Shown: positions 19,298 through 26,570 of the stretch, in pieces
Position numbering within the stretch: position 1 is the first letter of the stretch
Layout of the letters: the number at the start of each line of letters is the position of its first letter
Assembly (NCBI RefSeq): GCF_030816915.1
Contig: NZ_JAUSYN010000002.1
Coordinates: forward strand, 6,647,501 to 6,711,500
Direction: 5' to 3'
DNA from: Streptomyces sp. B3I8
Lineage (GTDB): Bacteria; Actinomycetota; Actinomycetes; Streptomycetales; Streptomycetaceae
DNA: 64,000 nt
The notes under the pieces: model-generated
Database searches by the model: none
What the model saw: the letters and a program-made list of their open reading frames with translations, nothing else
Told to the model about the DNA's origin: nothing
Program-made: the position numbers and the translations under genes

Positions 19298-19393
19298 GAT
19301 GTCATCCTCGAAGCCACGAACACGCCTCATCCCGGGTCGGGGCTTTTCCTGTGGGGCGGACCCGGCGGGGGCAGAACTGAGTGGGCGCGCAGC

Positions 19394-19439
19394 GTGACGA
19401 AGCCTGGCCGGCAGCGGTTTTCCGGCCAGGCTTCGTCAC
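19394..19439. repeat. Perfect 18-bp inverted repeat
   Basis: GTGACGAAGCCTGGCCGG (19394-19411) and its exact complement at 19422-19439 enclose a 10-base loop, cagcggtttt. The structure is far stronger than needed for a terminator and lies 120 bases after the I36 gene, next to a second, larger inverted repeat. Confidence 0.75.
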
Positions 19440-19462
19440 AGCGCGGACCGACACCTCAGTGC

Positions 19463-19526
19463 AGCCGGACACCACTACAGGCGGCCCAGGACGTCCTCCC
19501 CGGGCCGCCTGTGGTGGTGTCCGGCT
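19463..19526. repeat. 25-bp inverted repeat with a palindromic loop
   Basis: The left arm (19463-19487, starting AGCCGGACACC) and the right arm (19502-19526, ending GGTGTCCGGCT) match at 24 of 25 positions. The 14-base loop contains the small palindrome AGGACGTCCT. Together with the preceding hairpin it forms a tandem of two large stem-loops in otherwise empty sequence. Confidence 0.75.
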
Positions 19527-20144: not shown

Positions 20145-21029
20145 TCAGTTGGCCGCGTCGGGGCTCGAGTGGTGGTCGGCGGAGCCGGTGAGCGCCCAGC
20201 TGGCCAACAGGTCGAGGGCCTCCTTGGAGTGTGAGCCGGGTTCGGCGGTGTAGAGGAAGAGGGTGGTGTCGGGGTCTCCGGGGAGGGTGAGGGTTTCGTA
20301 TTCGACGGTGAGTTCGCCGACGAGGGGGTGACGCAGGCGTTTCGAGCCGTGGGTGCGTTGGTGGACGCGGTGCTGTTCCCACCATTGGTCGAAGTCGGCG
20401 TTCTTGCCGCGCAGTTCGTCGATCAGCGCTTGGGTGGCCTGGTCGTCGGGGTTGCGGCCGACTTCGAGCCGTAGGCTCTCGACCGCGGCGCGTGCCTGGT
20501 CCTCCCAGTCGAGGAACAGGGAGCGTGTGTGGTCGTCGAGGAACATCCAGCGGGCGTAGTTGCGTTCGGGGCGCGGGAGTTGCTCGAAGTCCGTGAACAG
20601 GGCGCGGGCCATCCGGTTGGCCGCGAGGATGTCGGTACGGCGGCCCAGGACGAGGGCGGGTTCACCGTCGAGGGTGTCGATGAGCTGGTAGAGGCCGGGC
20701 CGCACGCGTTGCACGCCGGCGGGGCGCCGACGGCGGGTCGGTGTGGCGGTCGTGCCGATGAGGTCCTGGAAGTGGGCCTTGCCGGCGGCGTCGAGGCCGA
20801 GGGCTCGTGCGAGGGCGTCGACCACGGCGGGCGAGGGGTTGATGGGCCGCCCCTGCTCGAGGCGGGCGTAGTAGTCGGTGGACACTCCGGCCAGGAGCGC
20901 GACCTCCTCCCGGCGCAGGCCCGGCACCCTGCGGGTACGGCTGTCCGGAGGAAGCCCGGCCCGGGCGGGATCGACCAGCCCACGGGCCCGTCGCAGGAAG
21001 TCGGCCAATTCACGGTTGTTAGGACTCAC
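20145..21029 (-). CDS. MmyB-type helix-turn-helix regulator
   Basis: A 294-residue regulator. Residues about 5-80 form an XRE helix-turn-helix (LRREEVALLAGVSTDYYARL), and residues about 100-275 form the MmyB-like ligand-binding domain, with YQLIDTLDGEPALVLGRRTD, then ANRMARALFTDF and a C-terminal TLPGDPDTTLFLYTAEPGS. GTG 21029 is the natural start (SPNNRELADFLRRARG). This family in Streptomyces typically controls a divergent SDR oxidoreductase gene. Here the divergent position is occupied by a gutted SDR remnant at 21157-21255, and an intact SDR with a truncated copy of this regulator lies at 25.3-26.6 kb. Confidence 0.9.
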   Translation of the reverse strand: MSPNNRELADFLRRARGLVDPARAGLPPDSRTRRVPGLRREEVALLAGVSTDYYARLEQGRPINPSPAVVDALARALGLDAAGKAHFQDLIGTTATPTRRRRPAGVQRVRPGLYQLIDTLDGEPALVLGRRTDILAANRMARALFTDFEQLPRPERNYARWMFLDDHTRSLFLDWEDQARAAVESLRLEVGRNPDDQATQALIDELRGKNADFDQWWEQHRVHQRTHGSKRLRHPLVGELTVEYETLTLPGDPDTTLFLYTAEPGSHSKEALDLLASWALTGSADHHSSPDAAN

Positions 21030-21156
21030 GCTTCCCAGTGTCGATGACGGTGCACGCGGATGACTGGCCCTGTGCGTCCTAGGTTCCTCGGCACGCGGTC
21101 TTGCAGGGCCCCGCACACGTCCCCACGAGGGCCCACGGAGGTCCAGTCTGGAGGAC

Positions 21157-21255
21157 ATGTCCGGCGTCGCGGCGGCCACCCGCTCCTCCGAGCGGCTCCT
21201 GGCCGCCCTCGGCGACGCCACCGCCCCCACCACCGACCACCCCGACGCCGCCTGA
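21157..21255 (+). pseudogene. Internally deleted SDR remnant
   Basis: A 32-codon frame from ATG 21157: SGVAAATRSSERLLAALGDA joined to TAPTTDHPDAA and a stop. The first part matches residues about 34-55 of the SDR at 25312-26175 and the second matches its last ten residues, so about 220 codons between them have been lost. It lies head-to-head with the MmyB-type regulator, the usual arrangement of that pair. Confidence 0.8.
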
Positions 21256-21382
21256 TCCCGGCGAGCGACAGCACACCTCTGCGGAACAGCCGCAGGCGAC
21301 TCCCCGTGCGGCCCTCCCGGGGGCGGGCCGCACGCGCATTTCACCTCAGCGGCCCACCACCTGCCAGGAAGTAGGACATCTC

Positions 21383-22876
21383 GTGGACACAGCCCAGCCC
21401 CAGTACGACGTCATCGACCAGGTCGAGAAGGGGGTGCTCATCGACGGCAAGTGGCGGCCCGGTGCGGGAGGCGCGACGTTCCCTGTGGTGAATCCCGCCA
21501 CCGGCGAGCACCTGTGCGAGGTCGCCGACGCCACTCCGAAGGACGCGTCGGCCGCTCTCGACGCCGCGAGCGCCGCACAGCCCGGCTGGGCGGCGGTCCC
21601 GCCGCGGCGCCGCGGCGAGATCCTGCGCCGCGCGCACGATCTGCTGCTCGAACGCATCGAGGAGTTCGCGCTGCTGATCACGCTCGAGATGGGCAAGTCC
21701 CTGGCCGAGTCCCGCGCGGAGGTCCACTACGGTGCGAACTACCTGCGCTGGTTCGCGGAGGAGGCCGTTCGGATCGACGGCACCTGGAAAGTCAGTGAGG
21801 ACGGTACCGCCCGTGTTCTTGTCACCCGCCAGCCGGTGGGCCCCTGCCTCCTGATCACGCCATGGAACGCGCCGCTGGCGATGCCCGCCCGCAAGATCGG
21901 ACCGGCCGTGGCGGCCGGCTGCACCATGGTCGTCAAGCCGGCACAGCAGACCCCCCTCACAACGGCCGCCCTCGCCGGCGTGCTCATCGAGGCAGGTCTG
22001 CCCAGCGGCGTCCTGAACATCGTTCCCACCAGTCACGCCGCCCCGGTGACCGAGCCCCTGATCCGGGACGGCAGACTGCGCAAGCTGTCGTTCACCGGCT
22101 CCACCCCCGTGGGTCGCCTTCTGCTCGCCCAGGCGGCGGAGACCGTGCTGCGCACCTCGATGGAGCTGGGTGGCAACGCCCCTTTCATCGTCTGCGAGGA
22201 CGCCGACCTCGATGCCGCTGTCGAGGGCGCGATGACGGCCAAGCTGCGCAATGTCGGTGAGGCGTGCATCGCCGCCAACCGGCTGTACGCCCATGCCGAC
22301 GTCGCCGAGGAGTTCACCCGTCGGCTGGTCGCCCGCATGAGCAGGCTCACCCTGGGGGCGGGCACGGACCCGGCCACTGATCTCGGGCCTCTCATCGACG
22401 ATCGCCAGCGCCGCCGTCTCGCCGACCTGGTGGACGAGACGGTCGCCGCCGGTGCCCAGGTGCGGGCGGGAGCCAGGATGCCGGAGGGGCGCGGCTACTT
22501 CTACCCGCCGACCGTGCTCACCGACATCCCCACGGGTGCGCGCATCACCCGCGAGGAGATTTTCGGGCCGGTCGCAGCGGTCCAGACCTTCAGTACGGAG
22601 GAGGAAGTCCTCCGCGCGGCCAACGACACCGAATTCGGCCTGGTCAGCTACCTCTACACGCGAGACCTGAACCGTGCGCTGCGCATGAGTGAGCGGCTCG
22701 AATCCGGCATGGTGGGCCTGAACCGCGGATACGTGTCCGATCCCAGTGCTCCGTTCGGCGGCATGAAGCAGTCCGGCGTGGGCCGCGAGGGCGGCAACAC
22801 CGGCATCGACGAGTACCTGGAGCAGAAGTACGTCGCCATCGACATGGCCCCGTCCTCGGTGAGCGCCGTCTCATGA
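21383..22876 (+). CDS. NAD(P)-dependent aldehyde dehydrogenase (succinate-semialdehyde dehydrogenase-like)
   Basis: A 497-residue aldehyde dehydrogenase. PWNAPLAMPARKIGPA and VVKPAQQTPL bind the cofactor, SFTGSTPVGR is the Rossmann turn, Glu261 in SMELGGNAPF is the general base and Cys295 in NVGEACIAANR is the nucleophile; EEIFGPV and SPFGG-type APFGGMKQSGVGREGG close the site. It is closest in style to the succinate-semialdehyde/GabD group. GTG 21383 follows GGAAGTAGGA. The stop overlaps the start of the lyase gene by four bases (ATGA), so the two proteins are made together, which suggests one route that releases an aldehyde or semialdehyde and a dicarboxylate. Confidence 0.9.
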   Translation: MDTAQPQYDVIDQVEKGVLIDGKWRPGAGGATFPVVNPATGEHLCEVADATPKDASAALDAASAAQPGWAAVPPRRRGEILRRAHDLLLERIEEFALLITLEMGKSLAESRAEVHYGANYLRWFAEEAVRIDGTWKVSEDGTARVLVTRQPVGPCLLITPWNAPLAMPARKIGPAVAAGCTMVVKPAQQTPLTTAALAGVLIEAGLPSGVLNIVPTSHAAPVTEPLIRDGRLRKLSFTGSTPVGRLLLAQAAETVLRTSMELGGNAPFIVCEDADLDAAVEGAMTAKLRNVGEACIAANRLYAHADVAEEFTRRLVARMSRLTLGAGTDPATDLGPLIDDRQRRRLADLVDETVAAGAQVRAGARMPEGRGYFYPPTVLTDIPTGARITREEIFGPVAAVQTFSTEEEVLRAANDTEFGLVSYLYTRDLNRALRMSERLESGMVGLNRGYVSDPSAPFGGMKQSGVGREGGNTGIDEYLEQKYVAIDMAPSSVSAVS

Positions 22877-24228
22877 GCAGTACGGTTTTCGACTCCCTGT
22901 TGTTCAGGGACATGTTCGGTACTCCCGCGATGCGCGACGTCTTCGGCGATGCCGCCTACGTGAAGCGGATCACGCAGGTGGAAGTGGCTCTGGCGCGGGT
23001 GCAGGCGCGTCTCGGGTTCGTGCCTCAGGACGCCGCGGACGCCATCGCCGCGCTCTGCGATCCGACACGTCTCGATCATGAGCGGCTGCGCCGGGACACC
23101 GACAACGTCGGCTATCCGATTCTCCCCGTCGTGACGCAACTCGCCGAGCAGTGCGGCGACGCGGGCGGCTGTCTGCACTGGGGCGCGACCACCCAGGACA
23201 TCATGGACACGGCCACGGTCCTGCAGTGCGCCCAGGGGCTGGAGCTGGTGGCCGACTCCCTGGACCGGCTGCGTGACACCATGCGGCGGCTCGCTTCCGA
23301 GCACCTCGACACGGTCATGGCGGGACGGACTCACCTCCAGCACGCGTTGCCCATCACTTTCGGTTACCGCGTCGCGGTGTGGCTCTCGGCTCTCGACCGA
23401 CACGCGGAGCGGTTGTCCGAGGCACGGCGGCGCGACCTCATGGTCCAGTTCGGAGGAGCCGCCGGCACTCTGGCCTCCCTCGGACCGGGCCCGGAGGCCC
23501 TGCGTGTCCGCGCGGAGCTCGCCGCGGAACTCGGCCTGCGGGACCCCGAGATCACCTGGCATGTCGCCCGGGACGGCCTCGTCGAGATCGTCGGACTCCT
23601 GGCGGCGACAGGTGCTTCCCTCGGCAAGATCGCCGCGGACGTCGCCATGATGTGCTCGACCGAGTTCGGGGAACTGGCCGAGCCCTATGTGAAGGGCCGC
23701 GGGGCGAGTTCCACCATGCCCCAGAAGCGCAATCCCATCTCCAGCGAACTCGTGATCGCCGCCGCGAAGCTCCTGCGGGACAAGTCCTCCGCGATGCTGG
23801 ACGCGGCGATCCAGGACTTCGAGCGTGCCACCGGCCCCTGGCACGTCGAGTGGGCCGTTGTCCCCGAGGCGTTTCTCCTCCTCTCCTCCTCCCTGGAGCA
23901 GGCCACGCACGTGCTCGGCAACCTGCGGGTCGACGAGGCCCGCATGCGCGACAACCTCGGGCTGAGCGGGGGGCTCATCCTGGCCGAAGCCGTCATGATG
24001 GCGATCGCTCCCCACTTCGGCCGTCAGCGCGCCCACGAGATCGTCTACGAGGCGTGCGCTCGGGCGACGGAGTCGCGGACCGAACTCGTCGACGAGCTGC
24101 TGGAGGTCCCGGACGTGGTCGAAAGACTCGGAGAGGAGCGGATCAGGAAGCTGAGCGACCCGTCCGCTTATCTCGGCAGCGCACGTGCCATGGCCGAGTC
24201 CGTCATACGCGGACCGGTGCGGAAGTAG
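22873..24228 (+). CDS. Fumarase/aspartase superfamily lyase, PcaB/adenylosuccinate lyase-like
   Basis: A 451-residue member of the fumarase superfamily. The signature GASSTMPQKRNPISSE (about 277-292) contains the catalytic Ser loop, HWGATTQDIMD is the second conserved region and AGRTHLQHALPITFG the third. This set and the length match 3-carboxy-cis,cis-muconate cycloisomerase (PcaB) and adenylosuccinate lyase-like proteins. No other protocatechuate genes are nearby, so a true PcaB role is doubtful; a C-N or C-O lyase feeding the coupled aldehyde dehydrogenase is more likely. A strong terminator follows at 24239. Confidence 0.85.
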   Translation: MSSTVFDSLLFRDMFGTPAMRDVFGDAAYVKRITQVEVALARVQARLGFVPQDAADAIAALCDPTRLDHERLRRDTDNVGYPILPVVTQLAEQCGDAGGCLHWGATTQDIMDTATVLQCAQGLELVADSLDRLRDTMRRLASEHLDTVMAGRTHLQHALPITFGYRVAVWLSALDRHAERLSEARRRDLMVQFGGAAGTLASLGPGPEALRVRAELAAELGLRDPEITWHVARDGLVEIVGLLAATGASLGKIAADVAMMCSTEFGELAEPYVKGRGASSTMPQKRNPISSELVIAAAKLLRDKSSAMLDAAIQDFERATGPWHVEWAVVPEAFLLLSSSLEQATHVLGNLRVDEARMRDNLGLSGGLILAEAVMMAIAPHFGRQRAHEIVYEACARATESRTELVDELLEVPDVVERLGEERIRKLSDPSAYLGSARAMAESVIRGPVRK

Positions 24229-24238
24229 GAACGCGTCA

Positions 24239-24283
24239 ACACGGGTGGGGGCCGCCGAGCGATCCGGCGGCCCCCACCCGTGT
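24239..24283 (+). terminator. Terminator of the aldehyde dehydrogenase/lyase operon
   Basis: A perfect 19-bp stem, ACACGGGTGGGGGCCGCCG (24239-24257) with its complement at 24265-24283, and a 7-base loop, ten bases after the lyase stop. Streptomyces terminators often lack a T run, as here. Confidence 0.8.
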
Positions 24284-24510
24284 CCGCGTATGCCCCGAGA
24301 CTGTCGAGTCCAGCGAACGGTCGGGCTGCCGCCGCTGGGTCATGGAGAGGGCGATGTCCTGACGGTCCGGCTACCGACGCTCGAGCCGCGCCACGAGCCT
24401 GATCCCCGCGACTACCTGGCTTTCCCGGCCTCACCGTCGCCCTCTGCTGCTACAAGGCTGCTACGAGCGGCTCGTCCGCCTCACCACGGGACACGGTCCC
24501 CATGCGCAGC

Positions 24511-24551
24511 CGCCGCCCCCGACCCCTCTGTAAGGGCTGTCGGGGGCGGCG
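24511..24551 (-). terminator. Terminator after the DJ-1/PfpI gene
   Basis: CGCCGCCCCCGAC (24511-24523) pairs with GTCGGGGGCGGCG (24539-24551), 35 bases beyond the stop of the reverse-strand gene. The 227 bases between this hairpin and the one at 24239 hold no gene. Confidence 0.7.
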
Positions 24552-24585
24552 ACGCACTGATCTCGCTCGAGTGGGCGCGGTCGGC

Positions 24586-25278
24586 TCAGTCGAGCGCCGC
24601 GATCATGTCCTCGGCCATGCGGGCGCTGGAGGCCGGGTTCTGGCCGGTGAACAGGTTGCCGTCGACGACGTTGTACTGCTGGTAGGCCGCACCGCCGGAG
24701 TGGTCGGCCCCCTTCTCGCGCAGTGTGGCGGCCAGCAGCCACGGAGCACCCTCGGCCGTGCCGAACATCTGCTCCTCCTCGTCGGTGAAGGCAGCCATCT
24801 TCCGGCCCGCGAACAGCCAGTTGCCCTCTTCGTCCACGGCGCTCAGCAGCGCGGCCGGCCCGTGGCAGACGGCGCCGATGAGCTTGCCGGACGCGTTCGC
24901 GGCGGTCAGCAGGCGGCCGAGGTCAGTGTCCCGATAGAGGTCCACGACCGGACCGTGGCCGCCAGGGAGGACGACCGCCACGTAGTCGTCGATGTCGACC
25001 TCCTCCAGCTTCAGCAGGGGGCCGAACTCCCGGAGCGCCTTCTCCGCGTGCGCCACGTAACGGGCGCAGTCCTCTCCGGCGATCTCCGGGTCCGCGCTGT
25101 GCTGGTCGAGCGGCTGGAGCACGCCGCCCGGGGAGGCGAAGTCGACGGTGTGGCCGGCCTCGACGAACTTCTCGTGCGGGGCCGCCAGCTCCTCGGCCCA
25201 GTAGCCGGTCGGATACGCGGAACCATCGGTGCGCTCCCAGACACTGGCAGCCGACATGACGATCAATACCTTGCTCAT
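24586..25278 (-). CDS. DJ-1/PfpI family protein (Hsp31-like)
   Basis: A 230-residue class I glutamine-amidotransferase-like protein. The nucleophile elbow AVCHGPAAL places Cys138 and His139, and Glu29 or Glu30 in GYWAEEL completes the Hsp31-type site; PGGHGP is the oxyanion loop. Length and the large N-terminal ERTDGSAYPTGYWAEEL segment match the Hsp31/YajL glyoxalase III-type subgroup, which removes methylglyoxal or repairs glycated proteins. ATG 25278 is clear. It lies 33 bases after the SDR gene on the same strand, so the two form an operon, suggesting shared detoxification of reactive carbonyls. Confidence 0.85.
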   Translation of the reverse strand: MSKVLIVMSAASVWERTDGSAYPTGYWAEELAAPHEKFVEAGHTVDFASPGGVLQPLDQHSADPEIAGEDCARYVAHAEKALREFGPLLKLEEVDIDDYVAVVLPGGHGPVVDLYRDTDLGRLLTAANASGKLIGAVCHGPAALLSAVDEEGNWLFAGRKMAAFTDEEEQMFGTAEGAPWLLAATLREKGADHSGGAAYQQYNVVDGNLFTGQNPASSARMAEDMIAALD

Positions 25279-25311
25279 GGAACGTTCCTCTCGTGGAACC
25301 GGTGGTGGGGA

Positions 25312-26175
25312 TCAGGAGGCGTCGGGGTAGTCGGTGGTGGGGGCGGTGGCGGCGGTGGCGTCCAGGTTGGCCTGGAGGGCCTGCACCTTGGCGGTGGCGT
25401 AGGCGTGGGAATCGGATCCCAGGACCTGGCGCAGGGGGCCTTCGCCCTTGACGACGCGGTCGATGACGGCGGTGGCGCCGGCGAGGGGGTTGCCGAGCTG
25501 GCTGCCCTGGAGCTTGAGGTGGTTCTCGACCATCTCGCGGATGCCGGGGTAGTGGTCGGTGGTGGCCCGGGGCAGGGCCAGGGAGTCGCGGGTGAGGAAG
25601 CCGGTGCGGAAGTAGCCGGGCTCGACGATGGTGACGTCGATGCCGAAGTCGGCGACCTCACCGGCCAGGGCCTCGCTGATGCCCTCGAGGGCGAACTTGC
25701 CGGCGCAGTACAGGGCCCAGCCGGGTACGGACGTCAGGCCGAGGACGGAGGAGACGTTGACGATGTGGCCGTTGCGCTGTTCCCGCAGGACGGGGATCGT
25801 GGAGCGCAGGACGTTCCACACGCCGACGATCTGGACGTCGAGCATGTCGCGCACATCGCGGTCGGTGGTCTCCTCGACCGCGGCGAGGAAGCCGTAGCCG
25901 GCGTTGTTGACGACGACGTCGAGTCCGCCGAAGTGGTCGGTGGTCCGGGTGACGGCCTGCTGGACCTGCTGCTCGTCCCGCAGGTCCACGGTCAGGGGGA
26001 GCAGGCGGGTGGTGTCGGTGGCGTCGCCGAGGGCGGCCAGGAGCCGCTCGGAGGAGCGGGTGGTCGCCGCGACGCCGTCGCCCCGCCGCAGCAGCTGCCT
26101 GACCAGCTCGAGCCCCAGGCCACGGGAGGTGCCGGTCACGAACCAGATCGCGGGTCGGTCGGTCGGAAAAGCCAT
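25312..26175 (-). CDS. SDR family oxidoreductase
   Basis: A 287-residue SDR with TGTSRGLG, NNAG, SSVLG with the catalytic Ser, and YCAGKFALEG with Tyr and Lys. The TGTSRGLG glycine motif and the EPGYFRTGF segment mark the subgroup common in actinomycetes, usually NADP-linked, of unknown substrate. It is followed by the DJ-1 gene. Divergently, 190 bases away, lies a truncated copy of an MmyB-type regulator, its presumed former controller. Its last ten residues and an internal stretch recur in the 32-codon remnant at 21157. Confidence 0.9.
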   Translation of the reverse strand: MAFPTDRPAIWFVTGTSRGLGLELVRQLLRRGDGVAATTRSSERLLAALGDATDTTRLLPLTVDLRDEQQVQQAVTRTTDHFGGLDVVVNNAGYGFLAAVEETTDRDVRDMLDVQIVGVWNVLRSTIPVLREQRNGHIVNVSSVLGLTSVPGWALYCAGKFALEGISEALAGEVADFGIDVTIVEPGYFRTGFLTRDSLALPRATTDHYPGIREMVENHLKLQGSQLGNPLAGATAVIDRVVKGEGPLRQVLGSDSHAYATAKVQALQANLDATAATAPTTDYPDAS

Positions 26176-26361
26176 GATCTTCCTTGCCTTGTGTCAGTGC
26201 TGGAGGTCCCGAGCCGTTTCCCGGGGCCGGCACATCCAGCCTCATCCACTTCGACACGTCGTGGACGCCTGCACCGAGCCCTGCCGGGACGGGGATGGCG
26301 CGACCCAGGACTCGGCGGGCCGGCCAGAAGTCCCGGTCACCGGAGACGCTGAAGAGCGTGG

Positions 26362-26570
26362 CCGCTGACCAGCCGTGAACTGGCCGAGTTCCTGCGACGG
26401 GCCCGTGGGCTGGTCGATCCCGCCGGGGCCGGGCTTCCTCCGGACGGCCGTACCCGCAGAGTGCCGGGCCCGCGCCCCGAGGAGGTCGCGCTGCCGGCCG
26501 GTGTGTCCACCGACTACTACGTCCGCCTGGAGCAGGGGCGGCCCATCAACCCCTCGCCCGCCCGTGGCCG
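26362..26570 (+). pseudogene. MmyB-type regulator, N-terminal fragment
   Basis: About 68 codons, TSRELAEFLRRARGLVDPAG to VRLEQGRPINPSP, almost identical to residues 4-70 of the regulator at 20145-21029, with damage such as Pro for Leu in EEVALPAG. Similarity stops at 26570 and runs into unrelated sequence. It stands head-to-head with the intact SDR gene. Confidence 0.8.

Follow-up and report, generated by a model that had tools for sequence, protein, structure and literature searches.

The analysed window, a stretch of 64,000 nucleotides from Streptomyces sp. B3I8, contains two half-loci which face each other. Locus A (20.1–24.2 kb) carries an intact gene for an MmyB-type regulator (REG), the remains of a gutted short-chain dehydrogenase/reductase (SDR) gene, and genes for an aldehyde dehydrogenase (ALDH) and a lyase. 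The other half-locus, B (24.6–26.6 kb), is inverted relative to A and consists of an intact SDR gene, a DJ-1/PfpI-family gene and a dead REG fragment. Across both loci, the genes for REG, SDR, DJ-1, ALDH and lyase are each present in intact form exactly once.

The regulator gene of locus A (20145..21029, minus strand) starts with GTG and codes for 294 amino acids. Scanning residues 7–294 yielded matches to PF17765 (E=2.6e-62) and HTH_31 (E=1.2e-12), and this combination of a helix-turn-helix and an MmyB-like ligand-binding domain identifies the protein as an MmyB/MltR-type regulator. It is 71–82% identical in amino acid sequence to 12 orthologues and deviates at one of the 102 columns that are invariant in 28 orthologues. 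Two consecutive hairpins with arms of 28–31 nt (81% and 93% complementary) are located past the end of REG A (window 19381–19526), and Pfam scans of the ORFs around the loci gave no transposase in their vicinity.

The divergent partner of REG A is an SDR remnant of 32 codons, followed by the gene for an SSADH-like ALDH (21383..22876, plus strand; PF00171, E=1.3e-162), whose product deviates at 7 of 280 invariant columns, and a gene for a lyase of the 3-carboxymuconate cycloisomerase/adenylosuccinate lyase type (22873..24228, plus strand; PF00206 and PF10397). A perfect 19-bp hairpin (24239..24283, inverted repeat with 100% complementarity) is situated between the convergent half-loci and may serve as a terminator. 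Locus B continues with the DJ-1/PfpI gene (24586..25278, minus strand; PF01965, E=1.3e-15), whose product conforms to all 120 columns that do not vary among 18 orthologues, and the SDR gene (25312..26175, minus strand; 287 amino acids; PF00106, E=9.3e-47), whose product deviates at 2 of the 113 columns that are constant among 13 orthologues. SDR B shows the adh_short fold and the motifs TGTSRGLG, NNAG and YCAGK, as expected for a classical SDR; we take these to be the nucleotide-binding and Tyr-x-x-x-Lys motifs of this enzyme class. The differences of the surviving genes from those of relatives are mostly found at third codon positions. In the comparison with NCBIfam, none of the four products (SDR, DJ-1/PfpI protein, SSADH-like ALDH and carboxymuconate-cycloisomerase-like lyase) had a best match that reached its curated cut-off, and a small carbonyl or acid substrate for the enzyme set is only a guess.

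Broken gene copies

The SDR remnant of locus A (21157..21255, plus strand) is a 32-codon ORF corresponding to codons 34–53 and 278–287 of SDR B, as also seen from the inverted-repeat arms I2 and I3. Codons 1–33 and 224 internal codons (54–277) are lost, the three SDR motifs are missing from the remnant, and no DJ-1 gene was found at locus A. This agrees with the first-pass annotation of the DNA, which had described about 220 deleted codons, an SDR gutted to 32 codons next to an intact regulator at 20.1–21.3 kb, and an intact SDR at 25.3–26.6 kb. It had further reported a regulator cut to about 68 codons at locus B. The respective remnant (26358..26563, plus strand) indeed aligns to REG residues 4–68, but it is worse than cut: it consists of the old start codon, a GTG at the expected position 26358, and about 65 codons of the HTH region in a frame different from that of the start. 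Moreover, proline is found at 3 of the 37 HTH positions invariant in 28 orthologues, and the genome-level match to the remnant continues through two TGA stops. On account of the frame break from the GTG and the three prolines, a functional REG stub at locus B was rejected.

SDR genes with other internal deletions were observed in two relatives, in both cases beside intact REG and DJ-1 genes. In G130 (L060:5215–5564) the reading frame is lost, and in G180 (L065:8842–9456) about 70 codons (our own count) are deleted in frame, presumably including the region of the catalytic residues, judging from residue roles. Because the deletions of G130, G180 and locus A all differ, the SDR gene has suffered internal losses repeatedly next to an intact regulator gene. 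In another relative, G123 (L194:6206–8756), we recognised by eye a short SDR-like start at the expected place of the SDR, which is followed by other sequence including a LysR-like reading frame.

The parent divergon and the baseline in relatives

Placing the window proteins on the loci of relatives revealed the entire order, REG divergent from SDR, DJ-1, ALDH and lyase, in copy b of G273 and in G235, where the lyase gene adjoins that for ALDH. The order REG|SDR-DJ1-ALDH is found in G438 and the divergon order with the internally deleted SDR in G180, both without a lyase match, and ALDH also lies within the divergon of further relatives. The other loci show REG|SDR, REG|SDR-DJ1, REG|DJ1 or REG|DJ1-ALDH-lyase, and in all nine loci with ALDH nearby, DJ-1 is located between the promoter and ALDH. 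The first-pass annotation had treated the unit as a regulator/SDR pair; both genes do belong to one divergon in relatives, with the intact SDR divergent from the regulator, but the unit comprises up to five genes including those for DJ-1/PfpI, ALDH and lyase.

The comparison covered 33 REG loci, two of which are the G273 copies; these loci were picked by their REG match, so REG is present in them by choice. We left out L067 (which contains only REG paralogues of 43–54% identity), L071 and L076, and the other 69 of 80 loci found were not used, as their REG identity was 58% or less. A full or nearly full SDR adjoins REG in 18 of the 33 loci, a broken one in 2 (G130 and G180) and none in 13. A relaxed SDR search of these 13 loci retrieved only distant SDRs (26–33% identity) near two of them. 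The five-gene set split over two inverted half-loci was seen in none of the 33.

We also searched from the side of the SDR, using 392 Streptomyces genomes and 394 genomes of the class (overlapping sets which both include the genome of the window) with a threshold of E <= 1e-95. All of the 22 other SDR places found are accompanied by a nearly full-length divergent REG without internal stops, which is only 53–54% identical at two of them (L214 and L215). Locus B is the sole exception among the 23 SDR places, lacking an uninterrupted regulator in cis.

The relevant regulator family has been described by Xu et al. 2012 (PMC3406030), who report divergent SDR or MDR neighbours; 15 of 16 paralogues of S. 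coelicolor are divergent from a putative target which is an SDR/MDR or antibiotic-related gene. REG A shares the HTH and the PF17765 ligand-binding domain with this family, whereas the intact regulator and SDR are located here at separate inverted half-loci, and in some relatives the unit also includes ALDH, lyase and DJ-1. Among the open-access matches listed, as far as their text was available, we found no earlier description of a split MmyB/SDR divergon.

Origin of the two copies

Loci A and B are connected by inverted arms of 193 nt (93%), 70 nt (96%) and 47 nt (94%). The longest, I1, pairs positions 20826..21018 of the A side with 26370..26562 of the B side at 93% complementarity. The REG and SDR patches show 93–96% DNA identity between A and B, and the nearest other matches in the genome, which contains 30 PF17765 matches including fragments, reach only 51% amino acid identity for REG and 40% for SDR. 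Because the arms are 93–96% alike and no other close copy is present in the genome, the likeness of A and B reflects homology and not chance. The first-pass view that the regulator/SDR pair occurs twice is thereby confirmed, and that of a complementary decay of the duplicated pair is supported, with REG surviving only in A and SDR only in B of a divergon that is whole in relatives. The contrary case of fragments derived from unrelated copies, which the first-pass annotation had itself named, is ruled out because, apart from one another, A and B have no close match in the genome.

An assembly artefact is unlikely, since the REG arms of A and B show 7% difference and several deletions distinguish the two loci, and the assembly consists of two contigs with 99.63% completeness. 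A mobile element as the cause was discarded: Pfam scans of nine ORFs around the loci gave no transposase, two of the nine matching other families. A transposase-like reading of the stretch at about 19.9–20.0 kb was likewise without support.

The coding and promoter regions do not convey the same age. At the shared fourfold sites, A and B differ in only 3 of 63 cases (compared to 33–65% between A and 28 relatives in the REG part), whereas the similarity drops to only about 68% in the promoter regions. The contrast yielded p=9e-6 in Fisher's test, which is approximate because the intergenic count of 36/111 was derived manually by taking 68% of about 111. In the promoter tree, A groups with G273 copy a (97/98), and A and B as a single promoter clade were rejected at p-AU 0.034, in a test picked after the alignment had been viewed. 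The contrast between promoters of about 68% and coding patches of 93–96% disfavours the idea that the entire block was simply duplicated in recent times. Because the promoters also belong to different lineages, the coding identity seems to understate the age of the copies. The first-pass notion of a duplicated pair thus holds for the relatedness of the copies, but not for one simple recent duplicate. Instead, A and B look like older copies whose coding parts were homogenised later, and gene conversion would be the natural reading of this patchwork as well as of that in G273.

The gene trees are weak and mosaic, with SDR B grouping with G027/G132 (88) and DJ-1 B with G130 (79). The REG body of A is placed firmly with no copy and leans to G027/G132 at 35/77. 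Past DJ-1, the sequence of B is similar to that in G130 (68% over 101 nt), where no ALDH follows DJ-1; locus B may therefore never have contained ALDH and lyase genes.

G273 provides the closest parallel, as it likewise possesses two divergon copies (L058 and L059) with similar SDR-DJ1 parts and diverged promoters and REG genes. Unlike A and B, both copies are intact, have the same orientation and are about 37 kb apart. Comparing copy a (L058:9447–11044) with copy b (L059), SDR-DJ1 is 97–100% identical over about 1.6 kb in a sharp-edged, conversion-like tract, compared to 66–73% in the intergenic region and mostly 77–87% in REG. The LRP and MFS neighbours of locus B gave no match in L058, L059 or L067 (E 1e-8).

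Upstream box and candidate control in trans

A conserved box with the consensus CCTAGGACTCGCAGGCCCAGGC is located about 69–82 nt upstream of a conserved Glu codon of REG in 33 orthologues. Its near-consensus version upstream of REG A (21062..21083, minus strand), a putative operator, scored 28.4 bits and ranked first of 127958 window positions, and a weaker counterpart at locus B (26304..26325, plus strand) reached 15.2 bits, which places it within the top 3. The model was built from 33 training sites without A and B, but its core was chosen by eye from an alignment including both, so these scores are partly circular. Box B is about 13 bits below box A, it exceeds 4 of 33 leave-one-out scores, and its value was reached in none of six shuffled windows (best 14.7). 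Paralogue promoters could be scored for 8 of 11 fetched loci, out of 25 paralogue matches in all, as the HTH anchor was missing in three; one reached 15.8 bits (L025) and the others 9.5 or less. Two more box-like sites at window positions 2159 and 3573 (plus strand; 15.2 and 14.1 bits) are far from PF17765 matches and possibly due to chance. A term search of PMC12565409 gave no mention of the box.

With box B at 15.2 bits and a paralogue box at 15.8 bits, the site at B can be recognised, yet it is weaker and not unique in its addressing; it may be used by a different regulator or by none. Control of the B promoter by REG A in trans, in line with the first-pass suggestion that the surviving halves may work together, is plausible from these sites. 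REG A may also share the dimeric, ligand-dependent binding to a palindrome of MmyB/MltR-type regulators; the search for its site revealed the conserved box.

Proposed history and competing explanations

We regard it as probable that reciprocal loss has acted on two related copies of the divergon, A and B, with one regulator now serving both promoters. Two related copies of the REG/SDR-DJ1 divergon, one of them extending into ALDH and lyase, would have ended up inverted to each other, and recombination in the form of gene conversion would have homogenised their coding parts, while the promoters remained distinct. Each copy would then have dropped what the other supplied, SDR and a DJ-1 gene once present at A, and REG at B. 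The single remaining REG would serve its own promoter in cis, from which ALDH and lyase are probably co-transcribed, and the B promoter in trans, placing SDR-DJ1 under its control. The homology of the loci, the layout in relatives, the single intact copy of each gene, the broken REG of B and the patchwork of identity are direct observations.

An alternative, which we consider unlikely but to be taken seriously, is that both loci are mere leftovers: REG A would serve only ALDH and lyase, and SDR-DJ1 at B would be constitutive or driven by another MmyB-type paralogue, without a link in trans. The weakened box B, the paralogue promoter box of L025 and the 30 PF17765 matches in the genome are consistent with this, whereas the retention of REG in cis by all 22 other SDR orthologues and the failure of shuffled windows to attain the box B score argue against it. 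Less probable still is a single inversion by a crossover in the 193-nt REG repeats, which would have swapped the promoter halves of an intact REG/SDR-DJ1 divergon and an inverted, doubly decayed copy (REG stub/SDR stub-ALDH-lyase); the complementarity would then be the product of one rearrangement and not of two compensating decays. The arms are inverted and 93% alike, allowing such a crossover, and REG body A and SDR B both lean to G027/G132, as partners from one divergon would. However, the lean of the REG body has little support, with alternative placements not rejected, and the near-consensus box belongs to A, whose promoter this model derives from the decayed copy, with the weaker one in B. 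We give hardly any credence to the idea that the remnants still function as small genes, the SDR remnant coding for a peptide of 32 residues and the REG remnant for a short HTH fragment which binds DNA and modulates REG A. The 32-codon ORF does have a GGAGG ahead of its ATG and keeps the native stop, but all three nucleotide changes counted between the SDR pieces alter amino acids, and the REG stub is affected by its frame break and the prolines at three invariant HTH positions.

Returning to reciprocal loss, A and B are copies of one unit which have each lost a different part, the pattern of duplication-degeneration-complementation; functional complementation by the surviving parts is putative, and box B is weakened but present. 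If B never contained ALDH and lyase, the losses reduce to two blocks, REG and SDR-DJ1, and with one copy of each needed, the split outcome is expected about half the time. The complementarity is statistically modest by itself; the case draws its strength from the 22 other SDR places, all of which have REG beside them, together with the broken regulator at B. As a more specific and tentative proposal, to which we assign slightly less than an even chance, a bacterial divergon would have undergone duplication-degeneration-complementation, in which conversion kept the coding parts alike, the promoters stayed distinct, and reciprocal loss left two facing half-operons with one regulator acting in cis on ALDH-lyase and in trans on SDR-DJ1. 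Reciprocal gene loss is reported from the Hodgkinia lineages of cicadas (PMC10287537), where different genes are likewise lost from the copies and only jointly do these make up a complete set; here, by contrast, one small divergon on one Streptomyces chromosome is affected, and a regulator is parted from its target.

If true, a local divergent switch would have turned into a small two-promoter regulon. The reasons why bacterial regulators stay beside their targets are usually argued from comparisons, and here one lineage has broken a pair kept together in 22 of 22 other sampled cases, with G273 as a living comparison containing two intact copies. Should REG A still drive promoter B, the loci would represent a compact, testable case of a divergent switch becoming a multi-promoter regulon via reciprocal loss.

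The divergon of Sphaerisporangium perillae (L073), which belongs to another genus and family, contains REG and SDR genes almost identical to those of the Streptomyces relatives G235 (L063) and G180 (L065), with branches of 0.005–0.02. This near-identity points to a recent horizontal transfer.
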